Shown here piece by piece: positions 13,001-64,000 of a DNA stretch of 64,000 nt. The stretch spans positions 59,814-123,813 of the forward strand of contig BGKB01000009.1 of the NCBI GenBank assembly GCA_003116975.1. The letters run 5' to 3'. The notes beneath the pieces were generated by a model. It saw only the letters and a list, made by a program, of their open reading frames with translations. It was not told the DNA's origin and did not search any database. How positions within the stretch are numbered: position 1 is the stretch's first letter; each line of letters begins with the position of its first letter. The DNA comes from Aurantiochytrium sp. KH105 (taxonomy: Eukaryota > Sar > Bigyra > Thraustochytrida > Thraustochytriidae). A program made the translations under genes and the position numbers.

Positions 13001-13106
13001 TGCCCAGCTTCGGCTCATTGCTATTGCGCGCGACCACGGGGCCAGCGAGCTGGAGTCATCCATTTCTATTACCAAAAACGACGAGGGGCGCCTCGAGCTC
13101 GCATAG
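10023..13106 (+). CDS. GABA-B-like class C G-protein-coupled receptor (receptor 2, tandem paralogue)
   Basis: About 1027 residues from the ATG at 10023; an in-frame ATG at 9936 would add 29 residues. The layout matches receptor 1: basic N-terminus with an Ala run, a signal-type hydrophobic stretch (about residues 28-45), an ANF-type ligand domain (about 75-560), seven helices (about 580-850) and a long cytoplasmic tail. The paralogues share TKAVAAVIAVQHCQERNG, VIGTSRSVTSLPISVLANVN, RRAQPEFL, LKLYRIMRIFHNPSLR, DVDSSFQEGKTLAIAV and FVMGPKVHAV. The tails do not align by eye. This one carries an acidic run of mostly Asp (bases 12954-13008) close to the C-terminus. It probably arose by tandem duplication followed by tail divergence. 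A cell-surface signalling role is inferred from the family; the ligand is unknown. Confidence 0.9.
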   Translation: MRARARKRRRTSAAAAAAAAADPAHATRVLSLALLAAHAATATASRGLETRRRQVQEQEGEDKEGGSSSSSSATHVTVQLLTGLTSYEDGERVQLLGNIVTTKAVAAVIAVQHCQERNGMIVEALSAESMKGCEDLTFDIASYDTRSLQSVAVMSYLSGLSSTENATNVVIGTSRSVTSLPISVLANVNRIPVISYWASSSDLSDSSVHGQFFRTIPSDQATAKATADLLQRYKIGHAGMIYVDDPYGDSYRESLVQESAALGIEVLAYSYQASDKESVNLAIDSLNNTNFNVVVVVAFGNDIDAIVSQFHKNGMLGAGRLVIFGDVAGAEEVTQIVQRSPQLAEPLNASQVILAMGGRDDNAAYTRLKESWPSFIKYKDLINSHLPGGSRFMDPTIGVEDNLSGDNFTLQIDDDVFTSPDVVAGFIDGTAFTYDAVAASCRAACMSYLAAGGASASNQDVSTPVFNGEDRRPLWLRGDALGAQLKDMVDFPFSGTSGKVQFDAETGSRVPETASFVLQSIHINPDTLVARMKMAGDWKYNWTLADDLIFPGGTQNAPLQIDLPSEDQNIVSQGLVAFAYALVSVVLLLCIALSGWVRLKRRTPVVRRAQPEFLYLFLLGIAIAALSLVSLAYSVDKTSGDPSADLACNAFTWFLSLGSTITATSIVLKLYRIMRIFHNPSLRLLLITASSLFKVMASVLLLNTILLAIPTAVEPSRWERIVVKTDAFENPLESYATCVYAGGLVGRTCLWLLLVFHLSLYIVGASIAYRVRDVDSSFQEGKTLAIAVIWQFQLYLLAAPILLAVSATEMRIKFLILCFAIGLANIFALLFVMGPKVHAVAYHMEDLQERRLLRQPRKHQKLRKYASPKRGKSDRSSLEDASHEWNSPASKAAALQPADESSTESPPGFEASKMALLAQRPSDVDCTPCPESSQHLQNGEYDTSPLNATVPLPPSEVSPLSRVHRPNSIQEDFELTMDDDDDDDNDDDDDDGDAQLRLIAIARDHGASELESSISITKNDEGRLELA

Positions 13107-35900: not shown

Positions 35901-36938
35901 GTTGATGACACTGATAATGTAGCGAAAGATACGGCTATACAAGTCTTTGGCCAGCGCGTCGCGGGCCTCGCGGGCCTGCGAAGCCGTTCGAGGCTGCAAG
36001 ATCGATTCTCGGCCGGTCTGCAACTTGCGCTTGATGAACAGCGTTTCTACAGCTTCCGTGTCTTTTCCCATGCCCAGGAGGTCCGTGACCACTTCAAGGG
36101 CCTCGTGCGAATCCGGATCGAGCTTGCAGCTATCGGCGCCGGCACCAACGTCTTCATCAACGAACTCGAGGTTGCCCAAGTGAAGGACGCACCAGAGCGC
36201 GTTCGTGACAGCCGCAACATTCGATGTAGAAAGGCCCATGTGCCCGAGCTGTTCGATCATGCGCTCCCAGCGTTGCGCACTACCTGAGGTGGTGGAGCGG
36301 CCGCGCAAATACGCAAAGTGCTCCTCGCGTTGGAGAGCCTTGTTGTCTGCCTGAGCGGGGCCTTCGAAACTTTGACAAATATCGTACAGCACATGAAAAT
36401 TGGATGACTTGGCCGACCCGTTCACGACGCGTGCCTTCTCCAAGAGGTACTGGTGAACGCGGCCGCTCACGACGCGGCCTTGAGAGGGACTGAGACGGAG
36501 TTCGAACCAGCGCGCGAAGCGGCTCGAGTTGTGGTTGTGCTCCGTGGCGCAGTTTCCGTAGCTTTCCAAGAGCGTGCAGCTGTCAATCAGCTGCACTTGG
36601 AGTCCCTGGTTCGCGCATCGGGACCCCCCGGCAAGCTCATTCAAGTACACTTTGGTGGCCTCGGTCTTTCCGGAGCCGCTTTCTCCGGTCATGACGCACG
36701 AAAAGGAGGCCTTGGTGCGGAGTGCGCTGACGAAGGCCTTGTCTGCGAGGTCCTCGATGCGGGGTCCGTCCACCTCGGGTTCCACGGTAGTTTTCACGTC
36801 CTCGAAGGGGTTCACCTTCATGAGCACTTCATCGCCGAGCTTGGTGAAGATGCGCGCCCGCTCGAAGCGCTCGCGCAGCAGGCCCACCACCGTCTCCTCC
36901 GTCACCGACGGCAGCGCCGTCAGGTCCGTCTCCACCAT
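32961..36938 (-). CDS. Unconventional myosin heavy chain with IQ motifs
   Basis: 1325 residues. The motor domain spans about residues 5-680 with the P-loop GESGSGKT (85-92), switch I NHNSSRFA (135-142, Ala replacing the usual Gly), switch II DIFGFE (371-376), relay FEQLCINYGNEKLVQQF and the actin-side motif FVMCIKPN (580-587). Glu311, 16 residues before DALAK, occupies the TEDS position, so heavy-chain phosphorylation there is not needed. About five IQ-like motifs follow (690-870), then a short helix, a long disordered Pro/Ser/Thr region, two more IQ-like segments (about 1060-1130) and a disordered C-terminus. There is no long coiled coil, MyTH4, FERM or SH3 domain that I can see, so it is probably monomeric. 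The class is uncertain. It is an actin-based motor; cargo unknown. The ATG at 36938 fits the usual motor start; the frame stays open upstream. Confidence 0.92.
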   Translation of the reverse strand: MVETDLTALPSVTEETVVGLLRERFERARIFTKLGDEVLMKVNPFEDVKTTVEPEVDGPRIEDLADKAFVSALRTKASFSCVMTGESGSGKTEATKVYLNELAGGSRCANQGLQVQLIDSCTLLESYGNCATEHNHNSSRFARWFELRLSPSQGRVVSGRVHQYLLEKARVVNGSAKSSNFHVLYDICQSFEGPAQADNKALQREEHFAYLRGRSTTSGSAQRWERMIEQLGHMGLSTSNVAAVTNALWCVLHLGNLEFVDEDVGAGADSCKLDPDSHEALEVVTDLLGMGKDTEAVETLFIKRKLQTGRESILQPRTASQAREARDALAKDLYSRIFRYIISVINESIDAKVGNLGASNNDDKVTVSILDIFGFERFENNSFEQLCINYGNEKLVQQFHEVLVRAEIAVCREEGVPEGSIGVEDAYEAEQAAKEATLSGISSAFHMIQDETRLPKATDSSLTKKILQLKLGEHVKLSRVGNPVHFTVNHYAGLVVYNANGFLDKNRDEGPRDVDDVIGSSSSNEFLRALFASEESSEDAASKKAGAKPRAQAKRKTLGVKFRDEFTALATELAKSQQQFVMCIKPNREAVPKVFLEELVRDQLEANGTLTICKVRQSAFAEHVPKDKFVERYGFLADADSAADAGSLTGALIESEHLNAEDVFVGKTRILLRSRGREMLDACCEERAQAAAKMQAFARSFVARRKYLRMQQAAIRFQTMVRGKLARQGVAARRVTMHAAAVKVQSLFRMIVARAEADELREIKHRAAAIRVQAFARMALAVRRFKRALRLARWRRQKETSAIAIQALVRRWLRAQRAKRAQKRLEMKKAAEASLAAARLAEEKKLQTAVRQPDEVKAEDVGVSTTSRSGRESREPSGSSAAARPRGLTGNAEEDEDRVNAALLGRATIPRGRRKPSVAKSSKTTAATAVGAAGMNAGGSSSETPGSTSTPPPPPLPLLTTVKGAATESSELTTATPPVSAPPPVSSPKADKPPPVEMMREQRNGSTTSGAAAGASRGAAKSTAAVRTTKAMPADGLDVDHLIHVLAAILVQRTFRAKSHKWKVREKVRMLRETSAEIDAAQRLDRSATKIQCVFRSYRVRVLGHVPIDTADAPKRKTRPKSAALGMFKGRIRSRKASNNSGIFASHRGSGNLGNTRGSHMSLVDPPDRYNAEIDDDQQSVVSSSGRSRRLSTQFRRFSSAFRGPRSFASRNGMTDVEHYSGVAERDPRYQYLTVTSPVSGNSPVSSGKSPPPSSDPEYGALMRKLEDAAERRNVAALTQTLRTAYERGYISGPEVESAEAVLAQIRMVHIRQMEMEQEVVGFHP

Positions 36939-43961: not shown

Positions 43962-46900
43962 TCAAGTGCTAGGAGACGACCGGTGCAGTCTTCGCGCACG
44001 TGAGCAAAGCTCCTTAATGAGCGCTGGTTCCTCGTGCTTCGAATCGTAGTTCGGACTTCGATCTTTGACTCCCGGAGCATCTCGCCATGTGAGCACCTCG
44101 AGACGATCAAAGAGTCTTGCACGGAGCGCAGAGTTTTCAAACTTCTTTACGTCCTCGAAGTCCCATTCCTCATTCGTACCGTGGACCGCAACTGCTAGCA
44201 AGGAAGGTCCTTCTTCTCCTTCTTCTTCAACTCCTTCTTCTTCTACTCCTTCTCTATCTCCTCCTTTCTTGGTTTGACCTTGCAGCTTCTCCCATGACCC
44301 TTGCAGCTTCTTCCATGACCTTTGCACATCGTCCCAGCACTCGTTTTCGAGTACAACCACGATGACGTGAGGTTCATCCTTTTCCACAGAGAACCCGGTC
44401 TGTTTACCGAGCTTGAGTCCAAGATCTTTGACTGCCTTGGACTTCTCTTTGCCCACCACTGTTAGTCGAAGATCTTCCCCCTGCTTTAAGGCAAATGCTT
44501 GCATGGAAGGACGAATGGCTTCAAATCCTGCATGTTCTGCAAGGGCTACTAGCATTGCATCTTCTTCAAAGCGGCGTCGGCGATATGGGATACGCCTGCA
44601 TTTTGACAGTGCTTCCTTGGCGGAGTTGAAGACTGTATCGATATCTAATTTTAAGACCTTGAGTGAGACGCGGAGTTGGCGAGTGTTGCGATCGCGTCGA
44701 GGTGTTCCCAGCTTAAGCTCGGTATCATCGAGCTCTTGGTGATCAAAAAAAGCTTGCTCTTCGTCGAGCTCCTTCTCGAGTATTTTGTCGTCGAGCTCCT
44801 GATCCCCCCAGCCCAATGCTTCCCATGGCTCATCTATGCCTTCGTTCCAGGGGCTAAATCGACTGTCTTCTTCAACGACGAAGAAAATGCGGTCTTTCAG
44901 CTCCAGGCCCAAATCTCTGAAGTTCTGCACGGCAAAGTTGAGTTCCGCGAGACAGTAGGGCCGGAAAAGTACATCCTTGGTGAGCACCATGATGAAACAC
45001 TGAGACGAAAGAACCCCGCGATGTATGCTTTGAAGGTGGATCTCAGTGGCATTCATATCCACCCAAGATGACATTCGGTGGCGCTCGAGACCAGCTGCGA
45101 GGTCCTTGACAATTCCTGCGGCCTGCGACTGCATGTGTGACAGGAAAAAATGGTATGTCGGGAGCTCGATGAGTTCGTTGTGGGCACGTTGATTGTAAAA
45201 CAAACTCGAACTGTCATTTCTGTGCAGTTGGGGCTTTGTCGTGCGACCGAAGAGACTGAATCGTTTGGGAATCACGCGCTTGTGAAGGTTCATCACACGG
45301 CGAGAGAAGCGAGAGGATTTGCGCCTGCTTGTGCATGCGGCCCTGATGATCTTGTCTCCCTCTTCTTTCTCATGGCTTGGGTTGCGAAGGGTCTCAAAAA
45401 ACGGATGCTCATTGAGAATTTGCTCTATCGTTATGCGCTCCTTCGCATTGCCGCGAAGGCAGAGTCGTACCAGGTCGTGCGCGGCCTCGATCTCATAAGC
45501 ATCCGCGTCGAGACCATCTGTTTTCGAGTCATCCTCACGCCCACTCATCTCATCGTCGTTTTCTCCCTCCTTCTCCTCCTCTTCGTCCTTCTCGTGACGA
45601 CTTTTAATGCGATGAAGACGCTCGTCGTCCAGCGCAAGCCAATTCATGAGCTCCACCTTGTCGTGTCTTGTCACGAGATTGTCGTCAGACTCGTCGACCA
45701 TAAAAAGTTTTGTGCCGGAGAGCATCTGGAAAAGCACCACGCCAAAGCCCCAAACATCAATCGCTGGATCAGCCTGGGGCGGCTTGTCCTTTTTTGCTTT
45801 GGGCAGGAATTGCCATTTGGCTAATTCGGGGGCTGCGTAACCTGTGCTCACTTTTTCCGTGATGAAGCTCTTTTCTCCCGACGTCGAAATCGTTGCCGAT
45901 GCGTCCAAATCAATGAGTTGCCAATCTTCGTCGCCTATGGCGTCAGAACGCTCTCCAGTCACATTTTTTCGCCATTCGTCTGGCACCGTGAGACGCCCTC
46001 CTTTGTCGCTATCCGAGAATGTGTACTGCTTTGAAGCAGCGACGCGCACAACGTTGCGCGGCTTGATATCACCATGAATTCGACCGCTGTCGTGCAGACT
46101 TTTAACTGCAGAGAGAATCTTGTACGCAATCGTGCGGATCTTTCGCAGATCGCGGCCAGCAAAGCGCTCCGTGTTGATGGCTTCGAAAAGCGAGCGCGAG
46201 CCTCGTTTCATCACCAGGCACAGCTCATCGTCTAAGCGTTTAGCGAACTCCGAATTCTCGCGATGAAGAAGTGGTAAACAGCCTTCAAGATCCGCATCTC
46301 TGCTGGCTGCAGACTTGCGAGCCTCAGTCTCGCGATCGTATTGCTTCTTCTCCCGCATAATCTTAAGCGCCACAGCTTCGTTTGTTTGGATGTCCGTCGC
46401 GTAGTGAACCGCACATGTTTTGGATTCGTGAACTGGAGGGCCTTCCATGACACTGTAACGATCGAGATATGTGCCATACGTTTTGGCCCACGCCTTCGTG
46501 TTTTTGTTAGTGAGCGCAAGTGAACGAACCGTTCTTCCACCGTCGTCTTCAGCTTTCATCAACAGGAGACCATCCTTGAGAGACAAGCACGTCATGAGAA
46601 CTTCGTCGCAAAATCGTCGCGGAAGAGAGTATTGCTTTCTTGTTGCGTGGCAGTCAAACAGTGCATGAATTAGTGGAAGATTGGCGTCTTCAGCCTGTCC
46701 CTCTTTATCCTTTTCCTTCGCACTTTCGTGCTTCAGAAGCCAAAAATTAGGGTTCTCAAGACGCATCTGCGTCTCCTGCATCTCCGCGTTATCTTGAGTG
46801 AGAATGATAAGAAAGAGCGCGAATATGTGCGCCGATTCCCCTGCCAGCTCGTGCGCGGCCGACGTCCATTTTTCTTCATCCTTGTCGAAAAGATACCCCC

Positions 46901-47114
46901 GAATTCGTTTCAACTGAGCGTTGCCTTCCGAAGCTTGAAGCAGTTTGGTCCATGAGCTTGAAGGTAGCTCAGGCAGGCCACTGATTGAATAGCACGGGGA
47001 AATTAGTGTGCAGAAGTTCGAGTCTTTCTCCAGGCAAAAGTCATGACCAAACACAACTTACAAGATTCGACGCAAGCCACCATTCATCGTCAAGAGCACC
47101 TCGACAATCGCCAT
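43962..47114 (-). CDS. Protein kinase-TIR domain fusion protein, two exons
   Basis: Model: exon 1 47114-47062, intron 46981-47061, exon 2 46980-43962, giving 1023 residues. The large exon's frame is closed by a TAA just upstream and has no ATG there. The upstream sequence ATGGCGATTGTCGAGG ... ATCTT/GTAAGTT joins in frame to TGGCCTGCCTGAG. The N-terminal ~190 residues are helical with no known family. The kinase domain (about 190-550) has VALKIM (Lys224), HGDIKPRN (Asp322, Asn327), DLD (375-377) in place of DFG, and STGYAAPE; the Gly-rich loop is poor. A basic linker leads to the TIR domain (about 627-735: YHFFLSHMQ, RPYCLAEL with Glu697). The C-terminus has the same extra alpha/beta region as the paralogue at 1-2402. 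Probable cytosolic signalling protein. The exon 1 model is plausible but untested. Confidence 0.82.
46981..47061 (-). other. Predicted intron in the kinase-TIR gene
   Basis: 81 bp on the - strand: GTAAGTTGTG at the 5' end, CACTAAT as a possible branch site and TTCAATCAG at the 3' end. It removes an in-frame TAA and keeps frame. Confidence 0.65.
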
Positions 47115-47696
47115 CTGACCACCAACGCCGATGTTGTTGTGCTCAAGACTGTGCATGATGATTGTGGTGGGGCGTGGCATGGCATTAATTGATGAGCGCG
47201 AAATGGCTGTCAGTGTCCACCATCATGTCGCCGTCCCGTCGTCTTGGCGCAGTCTCGCCTTTCTGCTCTCCGCCACGAACGCCTGCCTGCCTTCCTTCAC
47301 GCAGAAATTCACGCGTGCCGCCTTCTTGCCTCCAATCTAAAGTCTTGACTCCAATCAAACGCAGGGCAACACAACCGAACCGACTTACTTCAATTCTCTG
47401 AGCGAGCTGTTCTTGGCCAAGCCTTTCCCGAGCCCCACGGCGCCATCTGGGCCGATGTTGTTCGACTCAAGGCTACGCATGATGATTGTGGTGTGGCATG
47501 GCATTAATTACATTTATTGCATTCATTGATGAGCGCGAAATGACTGTCAGTGTCCACCCTCATGTCGCCGTCGCCGTCGTCTTGGCGCAGTCCCGCCTTT
47601 CTGCTCTCCGCCACGAACGCCCACCTGCCTTCCTTCACGCAAGAAGCCATGGATGCCGCCTTCTTGCCTCCAATCCAAAGTCTTGCCTCCAATCAA

Positions 47697-47697
47697 N
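47697..47697. other. Ambiguous base marking a likely assembly join in the array
   Basis: A single N. To its left a unit stops at CTCCAATCAA, and to its right the sequence resumes at AATGGCTGTCAG, so about 200 bp of a unit are missing at this point. Confidence 0.85.
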
Positions 47698-50600
47698 AAT
47701 GGCTGTCAGTGTCCACCCTCATGTCGCCGTCGCCGTCGTCTTGGCGCAGTCCCGCCTTTCTGCTCTCCGGCAAGAACGCCCGCCTGCCTTTCTTCACACA
47801 GAAATCCACGAATGCCGCCTTCTTGCCTCCAACCCAAAGTCTTGCCTCCAATCAAACGCAGGACAACACAACCGAACCAACTTACTTCAGTTCTCTAAGC
47901 GAGCTGTTCTTGCCCAAGCCTTCCCCGAGCCCAACGGCGCCATCGTCGCCAATGTTGTTGTATCGAAGACTGTGCATGAAGAATGTAGTGTGGCGTGGCA
48001 TTCATTATATTCATTGCATTCATTGCATTCATTGCATTCATTGATGAGGGCGACATGGCTGTCAGTGTTCACCCTCATGTCGCCATCGACGTCGTCTTGG
48101 CGCAGTCCCGCCTTTCTGCTCTCCGTCACGAACGCCCACCTGCCTTCCTTCACGCAAAAATTCACGCATGCCAACGTCTTGCCTCCAATCCAAAGTCTTG
48201 CTCCAATTAAACAAAGGACAACACGACCGAACCGACTCACTTCAAATACCTAAGCGAGCTGTTCTTGCACAAGACTTCCTCGAGCCCAACGGCCCCATCT
48301 GGGCCGATGTTGTTCGACTCAAGGCTGTGCATGATGATTGCGGTGTGGCATGGCATTCATTGCGTTCATTGCATTCATTGAATTCATTGATGGGCGCGAA
48401 ATGGCTGTCAGTGTCCACCCTCATGTCGCCATCGACGCCGTCTTGGCACAGTCCCGCCTTTCTGCTCTCCGCCACAAACGCCCACCTGCCTTCCTTAACG
48501 CAGATATCCATGAATGCCGCCTTCTTGCCTCCAATACAAAATCTTGCCTCCAAACAAACGCAGGACAACACAACCGAACCGACTTACTTCAAAAGCTTCA
48601 GCGAGCTGTTCTTCCCCAAGCCTTTCCCGAGGCCAATGACGCCATCTGGGCCGATCTCGTTCGACTCAAGGCTGTGCACGATGATTGAGATGTGGCATGG
48701 CATTCATTGCATTTATTGCATTCATTGATGAGCGCGAAATGCCTGTCAGTGTCCACCTGCACGAACGCTCACCTGCCTTCCTTCACACAGAAATCCGCGC
48801 ATGCTGCCTTCTTGCCTCCATTCCAAAGTCTCGTCTCCAATCAAACGCAGGATAACGCAACTGAACCAACTTACGTCAGTTCTCTAAGCGAGCTGTTCTT
48901 GCCCAAGACTTCCCCGAGCACAACGGCGCCATCTGAGCCGATGTTGTTCGACTCAAGACTGCGCATGATGATTGTGGCGTGGCATGGCATTCATTGCATT
49001 CATTGCATTCATTGATGAGCGCGAAATGGCTGTCAGTGTCCACCCTCATGTCGCCGTCGCCTTCGTCTTGGCGCAGACCCACCTTTCTGCTCTCCGCCAC
49101 GAACGCCCACCTGCCTTCCTTCACACAGAAATCCACGCATGCCGCCTTCTTGCCTCCAATCGAAAGTCTTGCCTCCAATCAAACGCAGGACAACACAACC
49201 GAACCAACTTACTCCAAAGACCAAAGCGAGCTGTTCTTGCCCAAGACTTCCCCGAGCACAACGGCGCCATCTGAGCCGATGTTGTTCGAATTAAGACTGT
49301 GCATGATGATTGTGGTGTGGCATGACATTAATTACAATTATTGCGTTCATTGATGAGCGCGAAATGGCTGTCAGCGTCCACCCTCACGAACGCCCACCTG
49401 CCTTCCTTCACGCATAAATCCACGAATGCCGCCTTCTTGCTTCCAATCCAGAGTCGTGCCTCCAATTAGAAGCAGGACAACGCAACCGAATCAACTTACT
49501 TCAGTTCTCTAAGCGAGATGTTCTTGCCAAAGCCTTCCCCGAGCGCAACGGCGCCATCTGGGCCGATGTTGTTCGAACCAAGGCTGCGCATGATGATTGT
49601 GGTGTGGCATGGCATTAATTACATTTATTGCATTCATTGATGAGCGCGGAATGGTTGTCAGTGTCCATCCTCATGTCGCCGTCGCCGTCGTCTTGGCGCA
49701 GTCCCGCCTTTCTGCTCTCCGCCACGAACGCCCACCTGCCTTCCTGAACGCAGAAATCCACGCATGCCGCCTTGTTGCCTCCAATCCAAAGTCTTGCCTC
49801 CAATCAAACGCAGGACAACACAACCGAATCAACTTACTTCAGTTCTCTTAGCGAGCTGTTCTTGCCCAAGCCTTCCCCGAGCCCAACGGCGCCATCTGGG
49901 CCGATGTTGTTCGACTCAAGGCTGCGCATGATGATTGTGGTGTGGCATGGCATTAATTATATTTATTGCGTTCATTGATGAGCGCGAAATGGCTGTCAGT
50001 GTCCACCCTCATGTCGCCGTCGCCGTCGTCTTCGCGCAGTTCCGCCTTTCTGCTCTCCGCCACGAACGCCCACCTGCCTTCCTTCACGCAGAAATCTACG
50101 CATACCGCCTTCTTGCCTCCAATCCAAAGTCTTGCCTCCAATCAAACAAAGGACAACAAAACCGAACCAACTTACTTCAATTCTCTGAGCGAGCTGCATT
50201 TGCTCAAGCCTTCCCCGAGCCCAACGGCGCCATCGTCGCCGATGTCGTTGTATCGAAGACTGTGCATGATGATTGAGGTGTGGCATGGTATTCATTGCAT
50301 CCGTTGCATTCATTGATGAGCGCGAAATGGCTGTCAGTGTCCACCCTCATGTCGCCATCGAAGTCGTCTTGGCGCAGTCCCGCCTTTCTGCTGTCCGCGA
50401 CAAACGCCCACCTGTCTTCAGAAAGAAATCCACGCATGTGGCCTTCTTGCCTCCAATCCAGAGTATTGCCTACAATCAAATGCAGGACAACACAACCAAA
50501 CCAACTTACTTCAAAGACGTAAGCGAGCTGTTCTTGCCCAAGCCTTCCCCGAGCCCAACGGCACCATCGTCGCCGATCTTGTTCGAACCAAGACTGCGCA

Positions 50601-53484
50601 TGATGATTGTGGTGTGGCGTGCCATTCATTGCATTCATTGCATTCATTGATGAGCGCGAAATGGCTGTCAGTGTCCACCCCAATGTCGCCGTCGTCGCCG
50701 TCTTGGTGCAGTCCCGCCTCTCTGCTCTCCGCCACGAACGCTCACCTGCCTCCTTCACGCAGGAATCCACGCATGCCGCCTTCTTGCCTCCAATCCAAAG
50801 TCTTGCCTCCTATCAAACAAAGGACAACACGACCGAACAACTTACTTCAACGACTTAAGCGAGCGGCTCTTGGCCAAGCCTACCCCGAGCCCAACGGCGC
50901 CATCTGGGCCAATCTTGTTCCACACAAGGCTGTGCATGATGATTGAGGTGTGGCATGGCATTCATTGCAATCATTGCATTCATTAATGCGCGCGAAATGA
51001 CCGTCAGTGTCCACCCTCATGTCGCCATCGAAGTCGCATTGGCGCAGTCCCGCCTTTCTGCCCTCCGCCACGAACGCCCACCTGCCTTCCTTCACGCAGA
51101 AATCCACGCATGCCGCTTTCTCGCCTCCAATTCAACGTCACGCGTGTCGCCTTCTTGCATCCAATCCAAAGTCTCGCCTCCAATCAAACGCAGGATAACG
51201 CAACTGAACCAACTTACGTCAGTTCTCTAAGCGAGCTGTTCTTGCCCAAGCCTTCCCCGAGGCCAACGGCGCCATTTGGGCCGATGTTGTTCGACTTAAG
51301 ACTGTGCATGATGATTGTGATGTGGCATGGCATTCATTGCATTTATTGCATCCATTGATGAGCGCAAATTTGCTGTCAGTGTCCACCCTCATGTCGCCGT
51401 CCCGCCATCTTGGCGCAGTCCCGCCTTTCTGCTCTCCGCCACGGACGACCACCTGCCTTCACACGGAAATCCACGCGTGGTGCCTTCTTGCATCCAATCC
51501 AAAGTCACGCATGCCGTCTTCTTGCCTCCAATACAAGTCCTATCTCCAATCAAACGCAGGACAACAACATGGAACCAACTTACTTCAAAGACGTAAGCGA
51601 GCTGTTCTTGCCCAAGCCTTCCCCGAGCCCAACGGCGCCCGAGTCGCCGATATTGTTCGACTCAAGACTGCGCATGATGATTGTGGTGTGGCATGACATT
51701 AATTACAATTATTGCGTTCATTGATGAGCGCGAAATGGCTGTCAGTGTCCACCCTCACCATTGACGTCGTCTTGGCGCAGTCCCACCTTTCTGCGCTCCG
51801 CCACGAACGCCCACCTGCCTTCCTTCACGCAGAAATTCACGCATGCCAAAGTCTTGCCTCCAATCCAAAGTCTTGCCTCCTATCAAACAAAGGACAACAC
51901 GACCGAACAACTTACTTCAAAGACTTAAGCGAGCGGCTCTTGGCCAAGCCTACCCCGAGCCCAACGGCGCCATCTGGGCCAATCTTGTTCGAACCAAGAC
52001 TGTGCATGATGATTGTGGTGTGGCATGGCATTCATTACATTTATTGCATTCATTGATGAGCGCGAAATGGCTGTCAGTGTCAACCCTCATGTCGCCATCG
52101 ACGTGGTCTTGGCGCAGTCCCACCTTTCTGCTCTCTGCCACGAACGCCCACCTGCCTTCCTTCACGCAGAAATCCACAAATGCCGCCTTCTTGCCTCCAA
52201 TCCATAGTCTTGCCTCCAATCCGAAGTCTTGCCTCCAATCAAACGCAGGACAACACAACCAAACAAACTTACTTCAAAGTCATCAGCGAGCGGTTCTTGC
52301 CCAAGCCTTCCCCGAGCCCAACGGCGCCATCTGGGCCGATGTTGTTCGAACCAAGACTGTACATGATGATTGTGGTGTGGCATTGCAGTGATTACATCGA
52401 TTGCATTCATTGATGAGCGCGAAATGGCTGTCAGTGTCCACCCCCATGTCGTGGTCGCCGTCATCTTGGCGCAGTCCCGCCTTTCTGCTCTCCGCTACGA
52501 ACGCCCACCTGCCTTCATTGACGCAGAAATCCACGCGTGACGCCTTCTTGCCTCCAACCCAAAGTTTTGCCTCCTTGCCTCCAATCCAAAGTCTTGCCTT
52601 CAATCAAATGCAGGACAACACAACCGAACCAACTTACTTCAGGTCTCTAAGCGAGCTGTTCTTGCCTAAAACTTCCCCGAGCCCAACGGCGCCATCTGGG
52701 CCGATCTTGTTCGCAACAAGACTGTGCATGATGATTGTGGTGTGGCATGGCATCGATTACATTCATTGCATTCATTGATGAGCGTGAAATGGCTGTCAGT
52801 GTCCATCCCCATGTTGCTGTCGCCGTCGTCTTGGCGCAGTCCCGGCTTTCTGTTCTCTGTCACGAACGCCCACCTGCCTTCCTTCAAGCAGAAATTCACG
52901 CATGCCGCGTTCTTGCCTCCAATCCAAAGTCACGCATGCCGCCGTCTTGCCTCCAATCCAAAGTCTTGCCTTTAATCATACAAAGGGACAACACATCGTA
53001 CCAACTTACTTCAAAGACGTAAGCGAGCTGTTCTTGCCCAAGCCATCCCCGAGCACAACGGCGCCATCGTCGCCGATGTCGTTGTATCGAAGACTGTGCA
53101 TGATAATTTTGGTGAGGCATGACATTCATTGTATTCAATGCAGTCATCAATGAGCGCTCAATGGCTGTTAGTGGCCACCCCCATGTTGCCGTCGCCGTCA
53201 TCTTGGCGCGCTCCCGCCTTTCTGCTCTCCGTCACGAACGCCCACCTGCCTTCCTTCACGCAGAAATCCACGAATGCCGTCTTCTTGCCTCCAATCGAGA
53301 GTCTTGACTCCAATCAAACGCAGGACAACACAATCGAACCGACTTACTTCAAAGAACTAAGCGAGCTGTTCTTGCCCAAGTCTTCCCCGAGCACAACGGC
53401 GCCATTTGGACCAATCTTGTTCGAACCAAGACTGTGCATGATGATTGAGGTGTGGCACGGCATTCATTGATGAGCGCGAAATGA

Positions 53485-54884
53485 CTGTCAGTGTCCACCC
53501 TCATGTCGCCGTCGCCGTCGTCTTGGCGCAGTCCCGCCTTTCTGCTCTCCGTCAAAAAAGCCCACCTGGCTTCCTTCACGCAGAATTCCACGCATGCCGC
53601 CTTCTTGCCTCCATTTCAAAGTCTTGCCTCCAATCAAACAAAGAACAACAAAACCGAACCAACTTACTTCAGTTCCTTAAGCGAGCTGTTCTTGTCCAAG
53701 CCTTCCCCGAGCCCAACGGCGCCGGAGTCGCCGATGCCATTACCAGCAAGACTGTGCATGATGATTGTGGTGTGGCATGGCATTCATTGCATTCAATGCA
53801 TTCATTGGTGAGCGCGAAATGGCTGTCAGTGTGGACCCTCGTGTTCCTGTCGCCGTTGTTTTGGCCCAGTCCCGCCTTTTTGCTGTCCGCAACGAACGCC
53901 CACCTGTCTTCAGAAAGAAATCCACGCATGTGGCCTTTTTGCCTCCAATCCAAAGTATTGCCTACAATTAAACGCAGGACAACACAACCAAACCAACTTA
54001 CTTCAAAGACGTAAGCGAGCTGTTCTTGCCCAAGCCTTCCCCGAGCGCAACGGCGCCATCTGGGCCGATGCCGTTGCCAGCAAGACTGTGCATGATGATT
54101 GTGGTGTGGCATGGCATTCATTGCATCCATTGCATTCATTGATGAGCGCGAAATGGCTGTCAGTGTCCACCCTCATGTCGCCGTCGCCGTCGTCTTGGCG
54201 CAGTCCCGCCTTTCTGCTCTCCGTCAAAAAAGCCCACCTGGCTTCCTTCACGCAGAATTCCACGCATGCCGCCTTCTTGCCTCCATTTCAAAGTCTTGCC
54301 TCCAATCAAACAAAGAACAACAAAACCGAACCAACTTACTTCAGTTCCTTAAGCGAGCTGTTCTTGTCCAAGCCTTCCCCGAGCCCAACGGCGCCGGAGT
54401 CGCCGATGCCATTACCAGCAAGACTGTGCATGATGATTGTGGTGTGGCATGGCATTCATTGCATTCAATGCATTCATTGGTGAGCGCGAAATGGCTGTCA
54501 GTGTGGACCCTCGTGTTCCTGTCGCCGTTGTTTTGGCCCAGTCCCGCCTTTTTGCTGTCCGCAACGAACGCCCACCTGTCTTCAGAAAGAAATCCACGCA
54601 TGTGGCCTTTTTGCCTCCAATCCAAAGTATTGCCTACAATTAAACGCAGGACAACACAACCAAACCAACTTACTTCAAAGACGTAAGCGAGCTGTTCTTG
54701 CCCAAGCCTTCCCCGAGCGCAACGGCGCCATCTGGGCCGATGCCGTTGCCAGCAAGACTGTGCATGATGATTGTGGTGTGGCATGGCATTCATTGCATCC
54801 ATTGCATTCATTGATGAGCGCGAAATGGCTGTCAGTGTCCACCCTCATGTCGCCGTCGCCGTCGTCTTGGCGCAGTCCCGCCTT
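53485..54884. repeat. Two-unit (672-bp) near-perfect tandem duplication within the array
   Basis: 53485-54212 and 54157-54884 read identically by eye at an offset of 672 bp, against clear divergence between ordinary neighbouring units. This is a recent duplication of a two-unit block. Confidence 0.85.
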
Positions 54885-57035
54885 TCGGCTCTCCGCCACG
54901 AACGCCTACCTGCCTTCCTTCACGCAGAAATCCACGCATACCGCCTTCTTGCGTTGTCCAATCCAGAGTCTTGCCTCCAATCAAACGCAGCAAAACACAA
55001 CCGAACCAACTTACTTCAAAACCTTAAGCGAGCTGTTCTTGCCCAAGCCTTCCCCGAGCCCAACGGCGCCCGAGTCGCTGATGTCGTTGTATTCAAGACT
55101 GTGCATGATGATTGTGGTGTGGCATGGCATTCATTGCATTCATTAATGAGCGCGAAATGGCTGTCAGTGTCCTCCATGTCGCCGTCGCCGTCGTCTTAGC
55201 GCAGTTCCCCCTTTCTGCTCTCCGCCATGAACGCGCACCGGCTTATCTTCACGCAGAATACGCAAGCCACCTTCTTGATTCCCATTCAAAGTCTTGCTTC
55301 CAATCAAACGCAGGACCACACAACCGAACCAACTTACTTCAGTTCTCTAAGCGAGCTGTTCTTGCACAAGCCTTCCCCCAGCACAACGGCGCCATTGTCG
55401 CCGATAATGTTGTATCGAAGGCTGTGCATGAAGAATGTGGTGTGGCATGGCATTAATTACATTCGTTGCGTTTATTGTAGAGCGCGAAATGGCCGTCAGT
55501 GTCCACCCTCATGTTGCCGCCGCCATCGTCTTGACGCAACCCAGCCTTTCTGCTCTCCGCCACAAACTTCCAACTGCCTTCCTTCACACGCAGAAATCAA
55601 CGTATGCCGCCTTCTTGCCTCCAATCCAAAGTCACGCATGCCGACTTTTTTCCTCCAATCCCAAATCTTGCCTCCAATCCAAAGTCTTGCCTCGAATCAT
55701 ACAAAGGGACAACACAACCGAACAAACTTACTTCAAAGCTCTAAGCGAGCTGTTCTTGGCCAAGCCTTTCCCGAGCCCCACGGCGCCATCTGGGCCGATG
55801 TTGTTCGACTCAAGGCTGTGCATGATGAGTGTGCCGTGCATTCATTGCATTCATTGATGAGCGCGAAATGGCTGTCAGTGTCCACCATCATGTCGCTGTC
55901 GCCGTCGTCTTGGCGCAGTCCCGCCTTTCTGCTCTCCGCTACGAACGCCCACCTGCCTTCATTGACGCAGAAATCCACGCGTGACGCCTTCTTGCCTCCA
56001 ACCCAAAGTTTTGCCTCCTTGCCTCCAATCCAAAGTCTTGCCTTCAATCAAATGCAGGACAACACAACCGAACCAACTTACTTCAGTTCTCTAAGCGAGC
56101 TGTTCTTGCCCAAGCCTTCCCCGAGTACAACGGCACCATATGGGCCGATGTTGTTGTATCGAAGACTGTGCATTGAGAATGTGGTGTGGCATCGCATTAA
56201 TTACATTCATTGTATTCATTGATGAGCGCGAACTGGCTGTCAGTGTCCACCCTCATGTCGCCGTTGCTGTTGTATTGGCGCAGTCCCGCCTTTCTGCTCT
56301 CCGCCACGAACGCCCACCTGCCATCCTTCACGCAGAAATCCACGCATGCCGCCTTCTTGCCTCCAATGTAAAGTCTTGCCTCCAATCAAACGCAGGACAA
56401 CACAACCGAATCAACTTACTTCAGTTCTCTAAGCGAGCTGTTCTTGCCCAAGCCTTCTCCGAGCCCAATGGCGCCATCGTCCTCGATGTCGTTGTTTCGA
56501 AGACTGTGCATGATGATTGTGGTGTGGCATGACATTCATTGCATTCATTGCAATCAGTGATGAGTGCGAAATGGCTGTCAGTGTCCACCCTCATGTCGCC
56601 GTACCGTCGTCTTCGCGCAGTCCCGCCTTTCTGCTATCCGCCACGAACACCAACCTGCCTTCCTTCAGGGAGATATCCACGCATGCCGCCTTCTCTCCTC
56701 TTATGGAAACTCTTGCCTCCAATCAAATGCAGGACAACACAACCGCACCAACTTACTTCAGAACCGTAAGCGAGCTGTTCTTGCCCAAGCCTTTCCCGAG
56801 CCCAACGGCGCCCGAGTCGCCGATGTCGTTGTATTCAAGACTGTGCATGATGATTGTGGTGTGGCATAGCATTCATTGAATTCATTGATGAGCGCAAAAT
56901 GGCTGTCAGTGTCCACCATCATGTCGCCGTCGCCGTCGTCTTAGCGCAGTCCCGCCTTTCTGCTCTCCACCACGAACGCCCACCTGCCATCCTTCACGCA
57001 GAAATCCACGAATGCCGCCTTCTTGACTGCCATCC

Positions 57036-58340
57036 AAAGTCTTGATTCCAAATTAAACGCAGGACAACACACCCGAACCAACTCACTTCAGTTCTCTAAG
57101 CGAGCTGTTCTTGCCCAAGCCTTCCCCGAGCACAACGGCGCCCGAGTCGCCGACGTTGTTCGACTCAAGACTGTGCATGATGATTGTGGTGTGGCATGGC
57201 ATTCATTACAATCATTGCATTCATTGATGAGCGCAAATTTGCTGTCAGTGTCCACTCTCATGTCGCCGTTGCCGTCGTCTTGGCGCGGTCCCGCCTTTCT
57301 GCTCTCCGTCACGAACGCCCACCTGCCTTCGTTAACGCAGAAGTCCATGCATGCCGCCTTCTTGCCTCCAATGTAAAGTCTTGCCTCAAATCAAACGCAG
57401 GACAACACAACAGAACCAACTTACTTCAAAGACATAAGCAAGATGTTCTTGCCCAAGCCTTCCCCGAGCCCAACGGCGCCATCTGGGCCGATGTTGTTCG
57501 ATCGAAGACTGTTCATGATGATTGAGGTGTGGCATGGCATTCATTGCATTCATTGATGAGCGCAAAATGGCTGTCAGTGTCCACCCTCATGTCGCCGTCC
57601 TGTCGTCTTGGCGAAGTCCCGCATTTCTTCTATCCGCCACGAACGCCCACCTCTCTTCAAACAGAAATCCACGCATGCCGCCTTCTTGCCTCCAATCCAA
57701 AGTCTTGATTCCAAATTAAACGCAGGACAACACACCCGAACCAACTCACTTCAGTTCTCTAAGCGAGCTGTTCTTGCTCAAGCCTTCCCCGAGCCCAACG
57801 GCGCCTGAGTCGCCGACGTTGTTCGATTCAAGACTGTGCATGATGATTGTGGTGTGGCATGGCATTCATTACAATCATTGCATTCATTGATGAGCGCAAA
57901 TTTGCTGTCAGTGTCCACTCTCATGTCGCCGTTGCCGTCGTCTTGGCGCGGTCCCGCCTTTCTGCTCTCCGACACGAACGCCCACCTGCCTTCGTTAACG
58001 CAGAAATCCATGCATGCCGCCTTCTTGCCTCCAATGTAAAGTCTTGCCTCAAATCAAACGCAGGACAACACAACCGAACCAACTTACTTCAAAGACATAA
58101 GCAAGATGTTCTTGCCCAAGCCTTCCCCGAGCCCAACGGCGCCATCTGGGCCGATGTTGTTCGATCGAAGACTGTGCTTGTTGATTGAGGTGTGGCATGG
58201 CATTCATTACATTCATTGATGAGCGCAAAATGGCTGTCAGTGTCCACCCTCGCCGTCCTGTCGTCTTGGCGCAGTCCCGCCTTTCTTCTATCCGCCACGA
58301 ACGCCCACCTCTCTTCAAACAGAAAACCACGCGTGCCGCC
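57036..58340. repeat. Two-unit (663-bp) tandem duplication within the array
   Basis: Two successive two-unit blocks match at a 663-bp offset with scattered differences. They share rare variants such as GATTCCAAATTAAACGCAGG, CACACCCGAACCAACTCACT and TCTCTTCAAACAGAAA. Confidence 0.8.
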
Positions 58341-61300
58341 TTCTTGCCTCCAATCCAAAGCCTTGCCTCCAATCAAACGCAGGGCAGCACAAACGAATCA
58401 ACTTACTTCAAATCTCTGAGCGAGCTGTTTTTGCACAAGCCTTTCCCGAGCCCAACGGCGCCCGAGTCGCCGACGTTGTTCGACTCAAGGCTGTGCATGA
58501 TGATTGTGGTGTGGCATGGCATTCATTGCATTCATTGCAATCATTGATGAGCGCGAAATGGCTGTCAGCGTGGATCCTTATGTTCCCGTCGATGTTGTCT
58601 TGCCCCAGTCCCGCCTTTTTGCTGTTCGCAACGAACGCCCACCTGTCTTCAGACAGAAATCCACGCATGTGGCCTTCTTGCCTCCAGTCCAAAGTATTGC
58701 CTTCAATCAAACGCAGGGCAACACCACCGAATCAACTTACTTCAAAGACCATAGCGAGCTATTCTTACCCAAGCCTTCCCCGAGCCCAACGGCGCCATCG
58801 TTGCCGATGTTGTTCGACTCAAGACTGTGCATGATGAGTATGGTGTGACATGGCATTCATTGCGTTCGTTGATGAGCGCGAAATGGCTGTCAGTGTCCAC
58901 CCTCATGTCGCCGTCACCATCCTCGTGGCGCAGGCCCGCATTTTTGCTCTCTGCCACTAACGCCAATCTGCATTCCTTCACGCAGAAATCCACGCATGCC
59001 GCCTTCTTGCCTCCGATCCAGAGTCTTGCCTCGAACAAACGCAGGTCAACACAACCGAACCAACTTACTTCAAAGACATAAGGGAGCTGTTCTTGCCCAA
59101 GCCTTCCCCGAGCCCAACGGCGCCATCTGGGCCGATGTTGTTGTATCGAAGACTGTGCATGATGATTGAGGCATTCATTGCATTCATTGCATTCATTGAT
59201 GAGCGCGAAACGGCTGTCAGTGTCCACCCTCATGTCGCCGTCGCCGTCCTCATGGCGCAGTTCCGACTTTTTGCACTCTGCCACTAACGTTAACCGGCGT
59301 TCCTTCACACAGAAATCCGCGCATGCTGCCTTCTTGCCTCCATTCCAAAGTCTTGCCTCCAATCAAACGCAGGGCAACACAAACGAACCAACTTACTTCA
59401 GTTCTCTGAGCGAGCTGTTCTTGCCCAAGCCTTTCCCGAGCCCAACGGCGCCATCGGTGCCGATGTTATTTGACTCAAGACTGTGCATGATGATTGTGGT
59501 GTGGCATGGCATGAATTGCATTCATTGATGAGTGCGAAATGTCTGTCAGTGTCCACCCTCATGTCGCCATCGCCGTCCTCGTGGCGCAGTCCCGCCTTTT
59601 TGCTTTCTGTCACTAACGCCAACCGGCTGCGTTCACGCAGAAATCCACGAATGCCGTCTTCTTGCCTCCAATCATACAAAGGGACAACACAACCGAACCA
59701 ACTTACTTCAAAGACATAAGCGAGCTGTTCGTGCCCAAGCCTTCCCCAAGCCCAACGGCGCCATCGTTGCCGATCTTGTTCGCACGAAGACTGCGCATGA
59801 TGATTGTGGTGTGGCATGGCATGAATTGCATTCATTGATGAGCACGAAATGACTGTTAGTATCCATCATCATGTCGCCGTCGCCGTCGTCTTGGCGAAGT
59901 TCCGCCTTTCTGCTCTCCGCCACGAACGCCCACCTGCCTTCCTTCACGCAGAAATTCACGCATGCCTCCTTCTTGCCTCCAATCCAAAGTCTTGCCTCCA
60001 ATCAAACGCAGGACAACACCATCGAACCAACTTACTTCAAAGACCAAAGCGAGCTGTTCTTGCCCAAGCCTTCCCCGAGCCCAACGGCGCCCGAGTCGCC
60101 GATGTTATTCGACTCAAGACTGTGCATCATGATTATGGTGTGACATGGCATTCATTGCATTCGTTGATGAGCGAGAAATGGCTGTCAGTGTCCACCCTCA
60201 TGTCGCCGTCGCCGTGGTCTTGGCGCAGTCCCGCCTTTTTGTTCTCTCTCACGAACGCCCACCTGCCTTCCTTCACGCACAAATCCACGCGTGCCGCCTT
60301 CTTGCCTCCAATCCAAAGTCTTGCCTCCAATCAAACGCAAGACAACACAACCGAACCAACTTACTTAAAAGACGTAAGCGAGCTGTTCTTGCCCAAGCCT
60401 TCCCCGAGCCCAACGGTGCCATCGTCGCCGATCTTGTTCGAACCAAGACTGTGCATGATGATTGTGGTGCGGCGTGCCATTCATTACATGCATTGCATTC
60501 ATTGATGAGCGGGAAATGGCTGTCAGTGTCTACTCTCATGTCGCCGTCGCTATCGCCGTCGGCTTGGCACAGTCCCACTTCTCTGCTCTCCGTCACGAAC
60601 GCCCACCTGCCTTTCTTCACGTAAAGTCTTGATTCCAATCAAACGCAGCACATCACAACCGAATCAGCTTACTTCAAAGTCATCAGCGAGATGTTCTTGC
60701 CCAAGCCTTCCCCAAGCCCAATGGCGCCATCGTTGCCGATCTTGTTCGCATCAAGACTGTGCATGATGATTGTGGGTGGCATCGCATTAATTACAATCAT
60801 CGATGAGCGCGAAATGGCTGTCAGTGTCCACCATCATGCCGCCGTCGCAGTCATCTTGACGCAGACCCGCCTCTCTGCTCTCCGCCAAGAACGCCCACCT
60901 GCCTTCCTTTACGCAGAAACACACGCATGCCAACGTCTTGCCTGCAATCCAAAGTCACGCATGCCACCTTCTTGCCTCCAGTCTAAAGTCTTGGCTCCAA
61001 TCAAAAAAAGGACAACACGACCGAACCAACTTACTTTAAAGACTTAAGCAAGCGATTCTTGGCCAAGCCTTTCCCGAGCCCCACGGCGCCATCTGGGCCG
61101 ATGTTGTTCGACTCAAGGCTGTGCATGATGATTTTGGTGTGGCATGGCATTCATTACATATATTGCATTCATTGATGAGCGCGAAATGGCTGTTAGTGTC
61201 AACCCTCGTGTCGCCATCGACGTGGTCTTGGCGCAGTCCCGCCTTTCTGCGCTCCGCCACGAACGCCCACCTGCCTTCCTTCATGCAGAAATCCACACGT

Positions 61301-64000
61301 GACGCCTTCTTGCCTCCAATACAAAGTCTTGCCTCCAATTAGAAGCAGGACAACACAACCGAACCGACTCACTTCAAATACCTAAGCGAGCTGTTCTTGC
61401 CCAAGACTTCCCCGAGCACAACGGAGCCATCTGAGCCGATGTTGTTCGACTCAAGGCTGTGCACGATGATTGTGGCGTGGCATGGCATTCATTGCATTCA
61501 TTGCATTCATTGATGAGCGCGGAATGGTTGTCAGTGTCCACCCTCATGTCGCCGTTGCCGTCGTCTTGGCGCAGACCCGCCTTTCTGCTCTCCGCCACGA
61601 ACGCCCACCTGCCTTCCTTCACACAGAAATCCACGCATGTCGCCTTCTTGCCTCCAATCCAAAGTCTTGCCTCCAATAAAACGCAGGACAACACAACCGA
61701 ACCGACTTACTTCAAAGACCTAAGCGAGCTGTTCTTGCCCAAGCCTTCCCCGAGCCCAACGGTGCCATCGTCGCCGATCTTGTTCGAACCAAGACTGAGC
61801 ATGATGATTATGGTGTGGTATTGCATTGATTTCATCGATTGCATTCATTGATGAGCGCGAAATTGCTGTCAGTATCCACCCTCTTGTCGCCGTCGCCTTC
61901 GTCTTGGCGCAGCCTCGCCTTTCTACTCTCCGCCACGAACGCCTGCCTACGCAGAAATCTACGCATGCCGCCTTCTTGCCTCCAAAATCCTAAGTCTTGC
62001 CTCCAATCAAACGCAGGGCAACACAACCGAACCAACTTACTTCAGTTTTTTAAGCGAGCTGTTCTCGCCCAAGCCTTCCCCGAGCCCAACGGCGCCCGAG
62101 TCCCCGATGTTGTTCGACTCAAGACTGCGCATGATGATTGTGGTGTGGCGTGCCATTCATTGCATTGATTGCATTCATTGATGAGCGCGAAATGGCTGTC
62201 AGTGTCCACCCTCACGTCGCCGAAGCCGTTGGATTGGCGCAGTCCCGCCTTTCTGCTCTCCGTCACGAACGCCCACCTGCCTCCATTCACGCAGAAATCC
62301 ACGCATGCCGCCTTCTTGCGTTGTCCAATCCTACAATCAAACACAGGATAGCACAACCAAACCAACTTACTTCAAAGACATAAGCGAGCTGTTCTTGCCC
62401 AAGCCTTCCCCGAGCCCAACGGCGCCATCGTCGCCGATCTTGTTCGCACCAAGACTGTGCATCATGATTGTGGTGTGGCGTTGCATTAATTACATTCATT
62501 GCATTCATTGATAAGCGCGAAATGGCTGTCAGTGTCCACCCCCATGTCGCCGTCGCCTTCGTCTTGACGCAGCCCCGCCTTTCTGCTCTCCGCCACGAAC
62601 ACCTGCCTGCCTTCCTTCACGCAGAAATCTACGCATGCCGCCTTCTTGCCTCCAATCCAAAGTCTTGCCTCCAATAAAACGCAGGACAACACAACCGAAC
62701 CAACTTACTTCAAAGACCTAAGCGAGCTGTTCTCGCCCAAGCCTTCCCCAAGCCCAACCGCGCCATCTGGGCTGATCTTGTTCGCAACAAGACTGTGCAT
62801 GGCATCAATTACATTGATTGCATTCATTGATGAGGGCGACATGGCTGTCAGTGTCCACCCTCATGTCGCAGTCACCTTCGTCTTGGCACATTTCCGCCTT
62901 TCTGATCTCCGCCAAGAACGCCCACCTGCCTTCCTTTACGCTAGAATCCACGCATGCAGACTTCTTGCGTTGTCCAGTCCAAAGTCTTGCCTCCAATCAA
63001 ACACAGGACAGCACAACCGCACCAACTTACTTCAAAGACATAAGCGAGCTGTTCTTGCCCAAACCTTCCCTGAGCCCAACGGCGCCCGAGTCGCCGATGC
63101 CGTTGTATCCAAGACTGTGCATGATGATTGTGGTGTGGCATGGCATTAAATACATTCATTGAATTCATTGATAAGCGCGAAATGGCTGTCAGTGTCCACC
63201 CCCATGTCGCCGTCGCCTCCATCTTGGCGCAGCCTCGCCTTTCTGCTCTCCGCCACGAACGCCTGCCTGCCTTCCTTCACGCAGAAATCTACGCATGCCG
63301 CCTTTTTGCCTCCAATCCAAAGTCTTTCCTCCAATCAAACAAAGGACAACACAACCGAACCAACATACTTCAAAGACCTAAGCGAGCTGTTCTTGCCCAA
63401 GCCTTCCCCGAGCCCAACGGCGCCATCTGGGCCGATGTTGTTCGAACCAAGACTGTACATGATGATTGTGGTGTGGCATTGCATTGATTACATTTATTGC
63501 ATTCATTGATGAGCGCGAAATGGCTGTCAGTATCTGCCCTTATGTCACCGTCACCGTCATCTTGGCGCAGACCCGACTTTCTGCTCTCCGCCACGAACGC
63601 CCACCTGCCTTCCTCCACGCAGAAATCCACGAATACCGTCTTCTTGCCTCCAATCCAAAGTCACGCTCGCCTCCCCTCCAATCCAAAGTCTTGCCTCCAA
63701 TCAAACGCAGGACAACACAGCCGAACCAACTTACTTCAAAGACCTAAGCGAGCTGTTCTTGCCCAAGCCTTCCCCAAGCCCAAGGGCGCCATCGTTGCCG
63801 ATGTTGTTCGCACGAAGACTGTGTATGATGATTGTGGTGTGGCATGACATTCATTGCATTTATTGACGAGCGCGAAATGGCTGTCAGTGTCCACCCTCAT
63901 GTCCACCCTCATGTCGAAGTCGACGTCGTCTTGGCGCAGTCCAGCCTTTCTGCTCTCACCACGAACGCCCACCTGCCTTCCTTCACGCAGAAATCCACGC

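Follow-up and report, generated by a model that had tools for sequence, protein, structure and literature searches.

The stretch of DNA analysed here (the window, 64,000 nucleotides) corresponds to positions C9:59814-123813 of contig C9 in a genome assembly of 76 Mb and 367 contigs. It contains, on the minus strand, part of a predicted 24-kb gene (C9:103775-128047) that extends outside the window. The gene model comprises 61 exons, 59 LRRs, and 8,496 nt encoding 2,831 amino acids, with one terminal stop and no internal stops. Codons are split 2+1 (phase 2) at all 60 exon junctions, two of which cross assembly gaps. Since two N gaps lie in the array of LRR exons, 59 LRRs is a minimum. The domain order of the predicted protein is an acidic N-terminus, at least 59 LRRs, a protein kinase, a TIR domain, and a TIR-like domain, with the splicing and joint use of all exons likewise being predictions (Table 1). 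Elsewhere in the window are a second open frame with kinase and TIR domains at the left end (78-2399, plus strand; Pkinase E 1.3e-9, TIR_2 E 2.5e-9), two class C GPCR-like genes (2834-7081 and 9936-13103, both plus strand; 7tm_3 with ANF_receptor), and a myosin head gene with IQ motifs (32964-36938, minus strand; Myosin_head E 1.7e-126). A further TIR match lies just outside the window (C9:55203-55607, minus strand).

Table 1. Features of the predicted LRR-kinase-TIR gene (window positions, unless prefixed with C9)
Feature	Position	Strand	Basis
Last exon, 3,019 nt (linker, protein kinase, TIR, second TIR-like domain, stop codon)	43962..46980	-	Open frame P0001; Pfam; acceptor TTCAATCAG before 46980
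Cryptic domain resembling a second TIR, P0001 residues 836-996	43992..44474	-	
TIR domain, P0001 residues 611-688; the Glu of ...YCLAELN... occupies the position of the Glu conserved in TIR domains	44916..45149	-	Pfam TIR_2
Protein kinase domain, P0001 residues 190-528; Lys-206 (VALK), HGDIKPRN, DLD, APE	45396..46412	-	
Intron, 81 nt, between last LRR exon and kinase-TIR exon, GTAAGT...CAG	46981..47061	-	
Last LRR exon, 87 nt, coding for LEHNNIGVGGQMAIVEVLLTMNGGLRRI(F)	47062..47148	-	61-exon model
Array of 49 LRR exons, 84 nt each, flanked by phase-2 introns that are homologous to one another, most of them 203-310 nt long	47389..63818	-	
One N, located in an interval of 413 nt between exons, the flanks of which do not fit one unit	47697..47697	.	
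Array running on past the window edge	63819..64000	-	Contig C9 followed beyond the window
Predicted first exon, MNTVKKLTARMKRAP..., Asp/Glu-rich, donor GTACGT	C9:128047-127548	-	

The array consists of tandem units of ~338 bp that lie between about 47.5 and 63.7 kb (Tandem Repeats Finder), and 49 units are recovered in the window by nhmmer (E 3e-28 to 2e-16), a diverged last unit at 47148-47062 standing outside the 49. Each of the 49 contains an 84-nt exon between AG and GT in the same open frame of the minus strand, which reads CAG/T CTT GAG TCG AAC AAC ATC GGC ... AGA GAA CTG AA/GTAAGTTGG, with slashes at the exon boundaries. Translation of the exon gives LESNNIGPDGAVGLGEGLGKNSSLREL-(N) and variants of it, or one 28-residue LRR of the ribonuclease-inhibitor type (RI-type), and the introns on both sides are in phase 2, cutting behind the second codon base. 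At the single N within the array, the assembly probably lacks one unit or more. Beyond the window, a run of 1,312 N (C9:123814-125125), equal to ~3.9 units, is followed by four further array exons, five diverged N-terminal LRR exons of 84, 84, 84, 102, and 84 nt (LRR4 being the 102-nt exon), and then the first exon. The region upstream of the array is similar in four paralogs (C42, C66, C69, and C225), and ~255 nt of it is found in three others (C90, C101, and C303).

All 53 array exons (49 in the window and four beyond) are 84 nt long, open, and bounded by AG and GT, with the donors GTAAGT (47 exons), GTGAGT (four), GTATGT (one), and GTAAGC (one). The 51 gap-free introns fall into 30 different lengths, and indels affect 24, 19, and 45 of them in three successive 84-column windows, as against none of the 53 exons. 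Under intron-like mutation, stops would be expected in 7.2 of the 53 exons. None is seen, an outcome reached in two of 2000 simulations; because the units are related by descent, these simulations and the rank counts given below serve as guides, not probabilities. LRRs of the RI-type are repeats of 28-29 residues that follow the pattern LxxLxLxxNxIxxxGAxxLxxxL. The assignment of the array to this type (LRR_6) draws on a Pfam LRR_6 match to one 365-aa LRR segment (E 3.2e-55), together with the consensus and the fixed residues over the 53 repeats. Satellite DNA is defined by being non-coding and lacking a conserved frame, and the array has neither property. Duplication through an assembly artefact was rejected, as 50 of the 53 exons are distinct and only one identical pair occurs among the 51 gap-free units. 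Other pairs are 99% and 94% identical, and the members of each pair are two units apart, which points to a recent two-unit duplication.

A preliminary description of this DNA had read the array as a satellite, possibly an amplified promoter and first-exon module, running into the first exon of the kinase-TIR gene. The strings on which it relied are present: CAGTCTTGAGCACAACAACATCGGCG...GGTCAGATGGCG spans 47151-47109 on the minus strand, in the sequence located at 47151-47062; the units carry the similar CAGTCTTGAGTCGAACAACATCGG...CAGATGGCG on the same strand; and the splice-donor-like GTAAGTTG lies downstream of both. The array and the kinase-TIR gene do belong together, with an exon module and a likely splice donor in common. 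However, the ATGGCG that they share is incidental. In the units, it falls out of frame across the codons GAT-GGC (Asp-Gly), and in the exon at 47148-47062 it encodes an in-frame internal Met instead of the proposed gene start. That exon, taken earlier for the first, comes last among the 59 LRR exons of the model, which places the start at about C9:128047, outside the window, and each unit of the array is a coding exon internal to the gene, constant in length and open in frame. What survives of the earlier account is therefore the position of the strings and donor and the idea of a shared exon module, whereas the meaning given to ATGGCG, the first-exon status, and the satellite or promoter origin do not. 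In alignment with the units, the intron in front of the exon agrees with the unit consensus at 94% identity. Likeness within the exon fades ~10 nt ahead of the ATG: mean nucleotide identity is 71% over its initial 24 nt and 32% over the other 60 compared.

The 87-nt last LRR exon recurs in the paralogs C42, C57, C69, C300, and C116, and from it the frame continues directly into the last exon. The translation of the open frame in the last exon, P0001, matches Pfam Pkinase (E 1.7e-23) and TIR_2 (E 7.4e-8). The Glu of its ...YCLAELN... motif may be the catalytic Glu of an NAD-cleaving TIR. When the P0001 TIR is aligned with the TIR protein 7uxr, Glu faces Glu, the alignment being weak (E 0.053). 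For the last domain, Foldseek returned no match at E <= 0.001; the best was a thioesterase (E 0.018), and a SARM1 TIR ranked sixth (E 0.052). A structure search with the whole model (pLDDT 66.9) yielded match lists filled by kinases. Neither P0001 nor the 365-aa LRR segment, the parts scanned, contains an NB-ARC or NACHT domain of the kind that defines NLRs. A simple Kyte-Doolittle scan gave a hydropathy maximum of 1.55 per 19 residues, located in LRR3, and no clear membrane segment such as a cell-surface Toll-like receptor or LRR receptor kinase would have in addition to a signal peptide; the N-terminus is acidic. This suggests that the protein is probably cytosolic.

Within the array exons, L1, N4, G10, L14, and L24 are fixed in all 53 repeats, with synonymous changes occurring at N4, G10, L14, and L24. 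Mean pairwise diversity at codon positions 1 and 2 in C9 is 0.475 for residues 2, 3, 5, 8, 9, 25, and 26, compared with 0.043 for the ten core residues and 0.133 for the introns, so that the variable codons exceed the introns ~3.6 times. These seven codons were chosen from the C9 data, and other loci provide a separate check: across 49 exons taken from 11 further loci, one N-cut C69 unit having been dropped beforehand, the same codons give 0.442, the core 0.026, and the introns 0.096. The concave-face set formed by residues 2, 3, 25, and 26 is equalled or exceeded in C9 by 14 of 20,475 four-codon sets, itself included, although its positions were set from LRR structure after the variability table was known and the choice was not blind. 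When residue 28 (mostly Asn) is added, 372 of 98,280 sets score as high or higher. At the other loci, Thr occupies residue 25 in 44 of 49 exons, so that this position hardly varies, and the set 2, 3, 25, 26 ranks only within the top 165 of 20,475.

The differences at the variable codons tend to come in blocks. Two or three nucleotide changes separate 68% of differing codon pairs there, as against 7.5% elsewhere, and recurrent codon blocks include GAG TCG, GGT TCG, and CGA TAC, as well as AGA GAA and ATG TCT. The pN/pS ratio is 0.73 overall, 0.94 at the variable codons, and 0.41 elsewhere, while diversity at third positions of the variable codons (0.497) is as high as at positions 1 and 2. The pattern is therefore regional and block-wise and does not reveal a dN/dS above 1; given the value of 0.94, no positive selection at the codon level was claimed on this basis. 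Such a pattern would also be compatible with ancient block alleles that selection has maintained or with a local hotspot of mutation. Linkage among codon blocks gave p below 0.05 in four of 15 pairs, uncorrected for the 15 tests, and not in the remaining 11, which indicates that the blocks are mostly, though not fully, independent.

The same exon-intron cassette was read in 11 other loci. There are 87 occurrences of the exon core on 14 contigs, with up to 3 mismatches allowed, and 60 of the intron core on 17 contigs, with none in the control in either case; one or the other core is also present on C29, C133, C143, C215, and C217, which lie outside the 11 loci compared. According to Pfam matches, six of the loci (C42, C57, C69, C116, C225, and C300) have a kinase-TIR end and four (C90, C101, C303, and C342) a Roc-COR-TIR end, while C66 runs off its contig. 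Two units are cut, one in L014 by the contig end and one in C116 by N. In C116, a frame break in the kinase region (L028, about 7,900) marks either a pseudogene or a sequence error. Mean intron identity is 92% when kinase-TIR loci are compared with ROCO-TIR loci and 89% when the loci are distinct but belong to the same type, as computed from 37 units of nine loci, with C66 counted as kinase-TIR, C9 kept outside the means between kinds, and C225 and C342 yielding no complete unit. The corresponding values are 87% for C9 against the others and 86% within C9. The nearest relative of a C9 intron lies within C9 in 38 of 51 cases and in other loci in 13, and none of the 49 exons of other loci is an exact copy of a C9 array exon. 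For C9, recent exchange with other genes is thus not shown. C303 (L025/L026), in contrast to C90 and C101, in which only an LRR1-like N-terminal exon was found at E <= 0.001, combines all five kinase-type N-terminal LRR exons with a Roc-COR-TIR end and is likely a chimeric receptor. Genome-wide, there are at least 150 TIR matches (150 scored of 258 candidates) and at least 124 COR-A matches, 116 of them over the cut-off; 91 of the 124 have a TIR among the matches listed within 3 kb downstream. Two weak NB-ARC matches were obtained, both over the cut-off. All such counts for the whole genome are to be taken as minima.

Taken together, the array is probably the LRR part of one giant cytosolic kinase-TIR receptor gene of immune type, the binding surface of which has been diversified by recombination between tandem exons. 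At the sequence level, the exon and frame structure, the in-frame continuity with the kinase-TIR exon, the shared cassette, and the fixed scaffold with hypervariable surface codons are established. Ligand binding and the switching of kinase and TIR would be expected of such a protein, and an immune role is suggested by domain resemblance. In the proposed mechanism, the LRR solenoid would bind a ligand, from a pathogen or another non-self source, through its concave face, and binding would switch on the kinase and TIR outputs. Near-identical introns may guide unequal crossing-over and gene conversion, which would change how many repeats a gene has and mix its exons and codon blocks, both internally and with those of other genes, with the frame intact. 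Since every unit is in phase 2, any number or order of repeats preserves the frame. Selection would then keep the LRR scaffold and favour variety at the concave face. A bolder extension, which we offer as speculation and do not expect to hold in full, is that this single-celled stramenopile possesses a recombination-driven recognition repertoire in which one LRR cassette is traded between kinase-TIR and ROCO-TIR receptors with conserved introns as guides. New surfaces would arise from exchange of whole exons and of blocks within exons, possibly within the lifetime of a clone, and would be multiplied by splicing.

The head-to-tail units, homogenised introns, and similarity reaching the kinase-TIR gene could also be produced by a non-coding satellite that supplied or amplified the promoter or first exon of that gene. 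This is highly improbable and is refuted at sequence level by frame, exon length, and splice sites, to which are added the LRR_6 match, the fixed LRR residues, the ATG lying out of frame in the units, the position of the first exon ~21 kb upstream of 47148, and paralogs with the same architecture. How the exons are used is a separate matter. If they served as alternative or skippable cassettes, any one transcript would include just a subset of the 53, and splicing would yield numerous isoforms in place of a single giant solenoid. Phase-2 introns throughout would allow any exon to be skipped in frame, brown-algal LRR exons are described as alternatively spliced in the part of PMC11378527 drawn on here, and a model from the thraustochytrid Hondaea fermentalgiana, P0027, joins exon 1 straight to LRR4. 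The Hondaea models may, however, be prediction artefacts, and exon skipping on this scale is a possibility that we rate below even.

Two other alternatives concern the role of the array and the cause of its diversity. Long tandem arrays can expand neutrally, and the array might be a relic, enlarged by replication slippage and unequal exchange, in a structural LRR protein with no recognition role. This is unlikely, as the scaffold is fixed and the surface variable in two separate sets of exons, the kinase and TIR domains remain open and recognisable, and the genome holds the many TIR (at least 150) and COR-A (at least 116) matches described above. It is also quite improbable that the variable codons reflect a mutation hotspot or targeted diversification, through hypermutation or templated conversion, rather than selection on old variants. 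A pN/pS of 0.94, equally variable third positions, and the excess of codon differences of two or three nucleotides (68% against 7.5%) would be expected from such a process, but the recurrent blocks (GAG TCG, GGT TCG, CGA TAC) resemble old alleles more than random mutation. Blocks are common to more than one gene for nine of 20 kinds at codons 2-3 and five of 11 at codons 8-9, but for only two of 19 at codons 25-26.

The reading as a recombining receptor gene moves an apparent satellite into the coding fraction, as more than 50 small, nearly interchangeable exons of one LRR each, and assigns to a marine protist related to thraustochytrids a receptor gene of 59 or more LRRs. It also provides a test case, as clones can be monitored for the length of the array and for its codon blocks.

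The named relatives are proteins of Hondaea fermentalgiana (P0002-P0008 and P0011). Their kinase-TIR ends are related, the best being 62% identical over 98% of P0001, and P0005 and P0027 have a matching N-terminal exon 1 and LRRs. P0005, a predicted protein, joins exon 1, the exon 1/LRR1 junction (KTIDLTDRKIGDEE), the start of LRR1, and the kinase-TIR end. Single predicted proteins (P0009, P0010, and P0011) also exist in the order LRR-kinase-TIR (LRR_6-Pkinase-TIR_2). The Hondaea models examined differ in having few LRRs and no long array, and carry names such as 'Protein kinase, putative' or 'Protein NLRC3'. In the chytrid fungus Zopfochytrium, P0137 and P0139 have kinase, LRR, and TIR domains, in the order TIR-kinase-LRR in P0137, perhaps as a parallel invention. 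NLRs, including plant TIR-NB-LRR proteins, are intracellular and some carry TIR. The LRR part resembles NLRs such as NLRC3 and NOD in its RI-type repeats, and its best protein match is a coral NLRC3-like protein. However, a kinase or Roc-COR takes the place of NB-ARC/NACHT in the parts scanned. Searches found no literature on 84-bp LRR exons in NOD2 and, among open-access full texts, no paper on LRR/TIR receptors of labyrinthulids or thraustochytrids. Further listings, viewed for 15 of 1,499, 12 of 26, and 10 of 11 entries, likewise contained nothing on thraustochytrids.

Tandem LRR exons of uniform size have been described in Tetrahymena, where exons of 90 bp with over 96% phase-2 introns form a young expansion for which ectopic recombination was proposed (PMC6564038, as excerpted here). 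The exactly uniform tandem exons and phase 2 are shared, whereas the exons here measure 84 nt instead of 90 bp. Tetrahymena is moreover a ciliate, most of its genes of this kind are under purifying selection, and TIR is not mentioned in the main text of that paper. A second precedent is the LRR-ROCO family of brown algae (Zambounis et al., 2012, as cited in Teng et al., 2024, PMC11378527). In the part of the latter paper considered here, these genes have 72-bp phase-2 LRR exons encoding 23-aa LRRs, 4-49 LRRs, splice variants, positively selected concave-face sites by PAML, and exon shuffling, with 31, 9, 22, and 47 genes per species, whereas other SAR species, Schizochytrium aggregatum among them, have four or fewer ROCO copies. 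The COR-A and TIR counts reported above may point to a very large ROCO-TIR family by comparison with the brown algae, for which the published maximum is 47 ROCO genes in a species, domain matches being set here against gene counts.

Judged by that portion of the paper, the similarities to the brown-algal family are one LRR per uniform exon, phase 2 throughout, exon shuffling (as proposed for the C9 gene), a variable concave face, candidate immune receptors, and a stramenopile host. The C9 gene shows both the uniform exon per LRR and the consistent phase 2. It has a kinase-TIR end rather than Roc-COR after the LRRs, while four paralogs here with the same array also carry Roc-COR. The LRRs differ in type and number, with 84-bp exons encoding 28-aa RI-type repeats, at least 59 of them, as opposed to 72 bp, 23 aa, and 4-49. 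Only LRR-ROC-COR is described for brown algae in the text considered, whereas TIR is present in all 11 loci with a scanned effector end, and in place of sites positively selected by PAML there is diversity concentrated at the concave face with a pN/pS of about 0.9. The C9 gene would work like the brown-algal and Tetrahymena genes, but as its LRR type, exon length, and effector differ, it is a member of neither group. It parallels their exon arrays, so far as these are covered in the portions of the two papers used, with another LRR type and other effectors, and thus bears on whether phase-2 LRR exon arrays have originated repeatedly as a means of evolving recognition.
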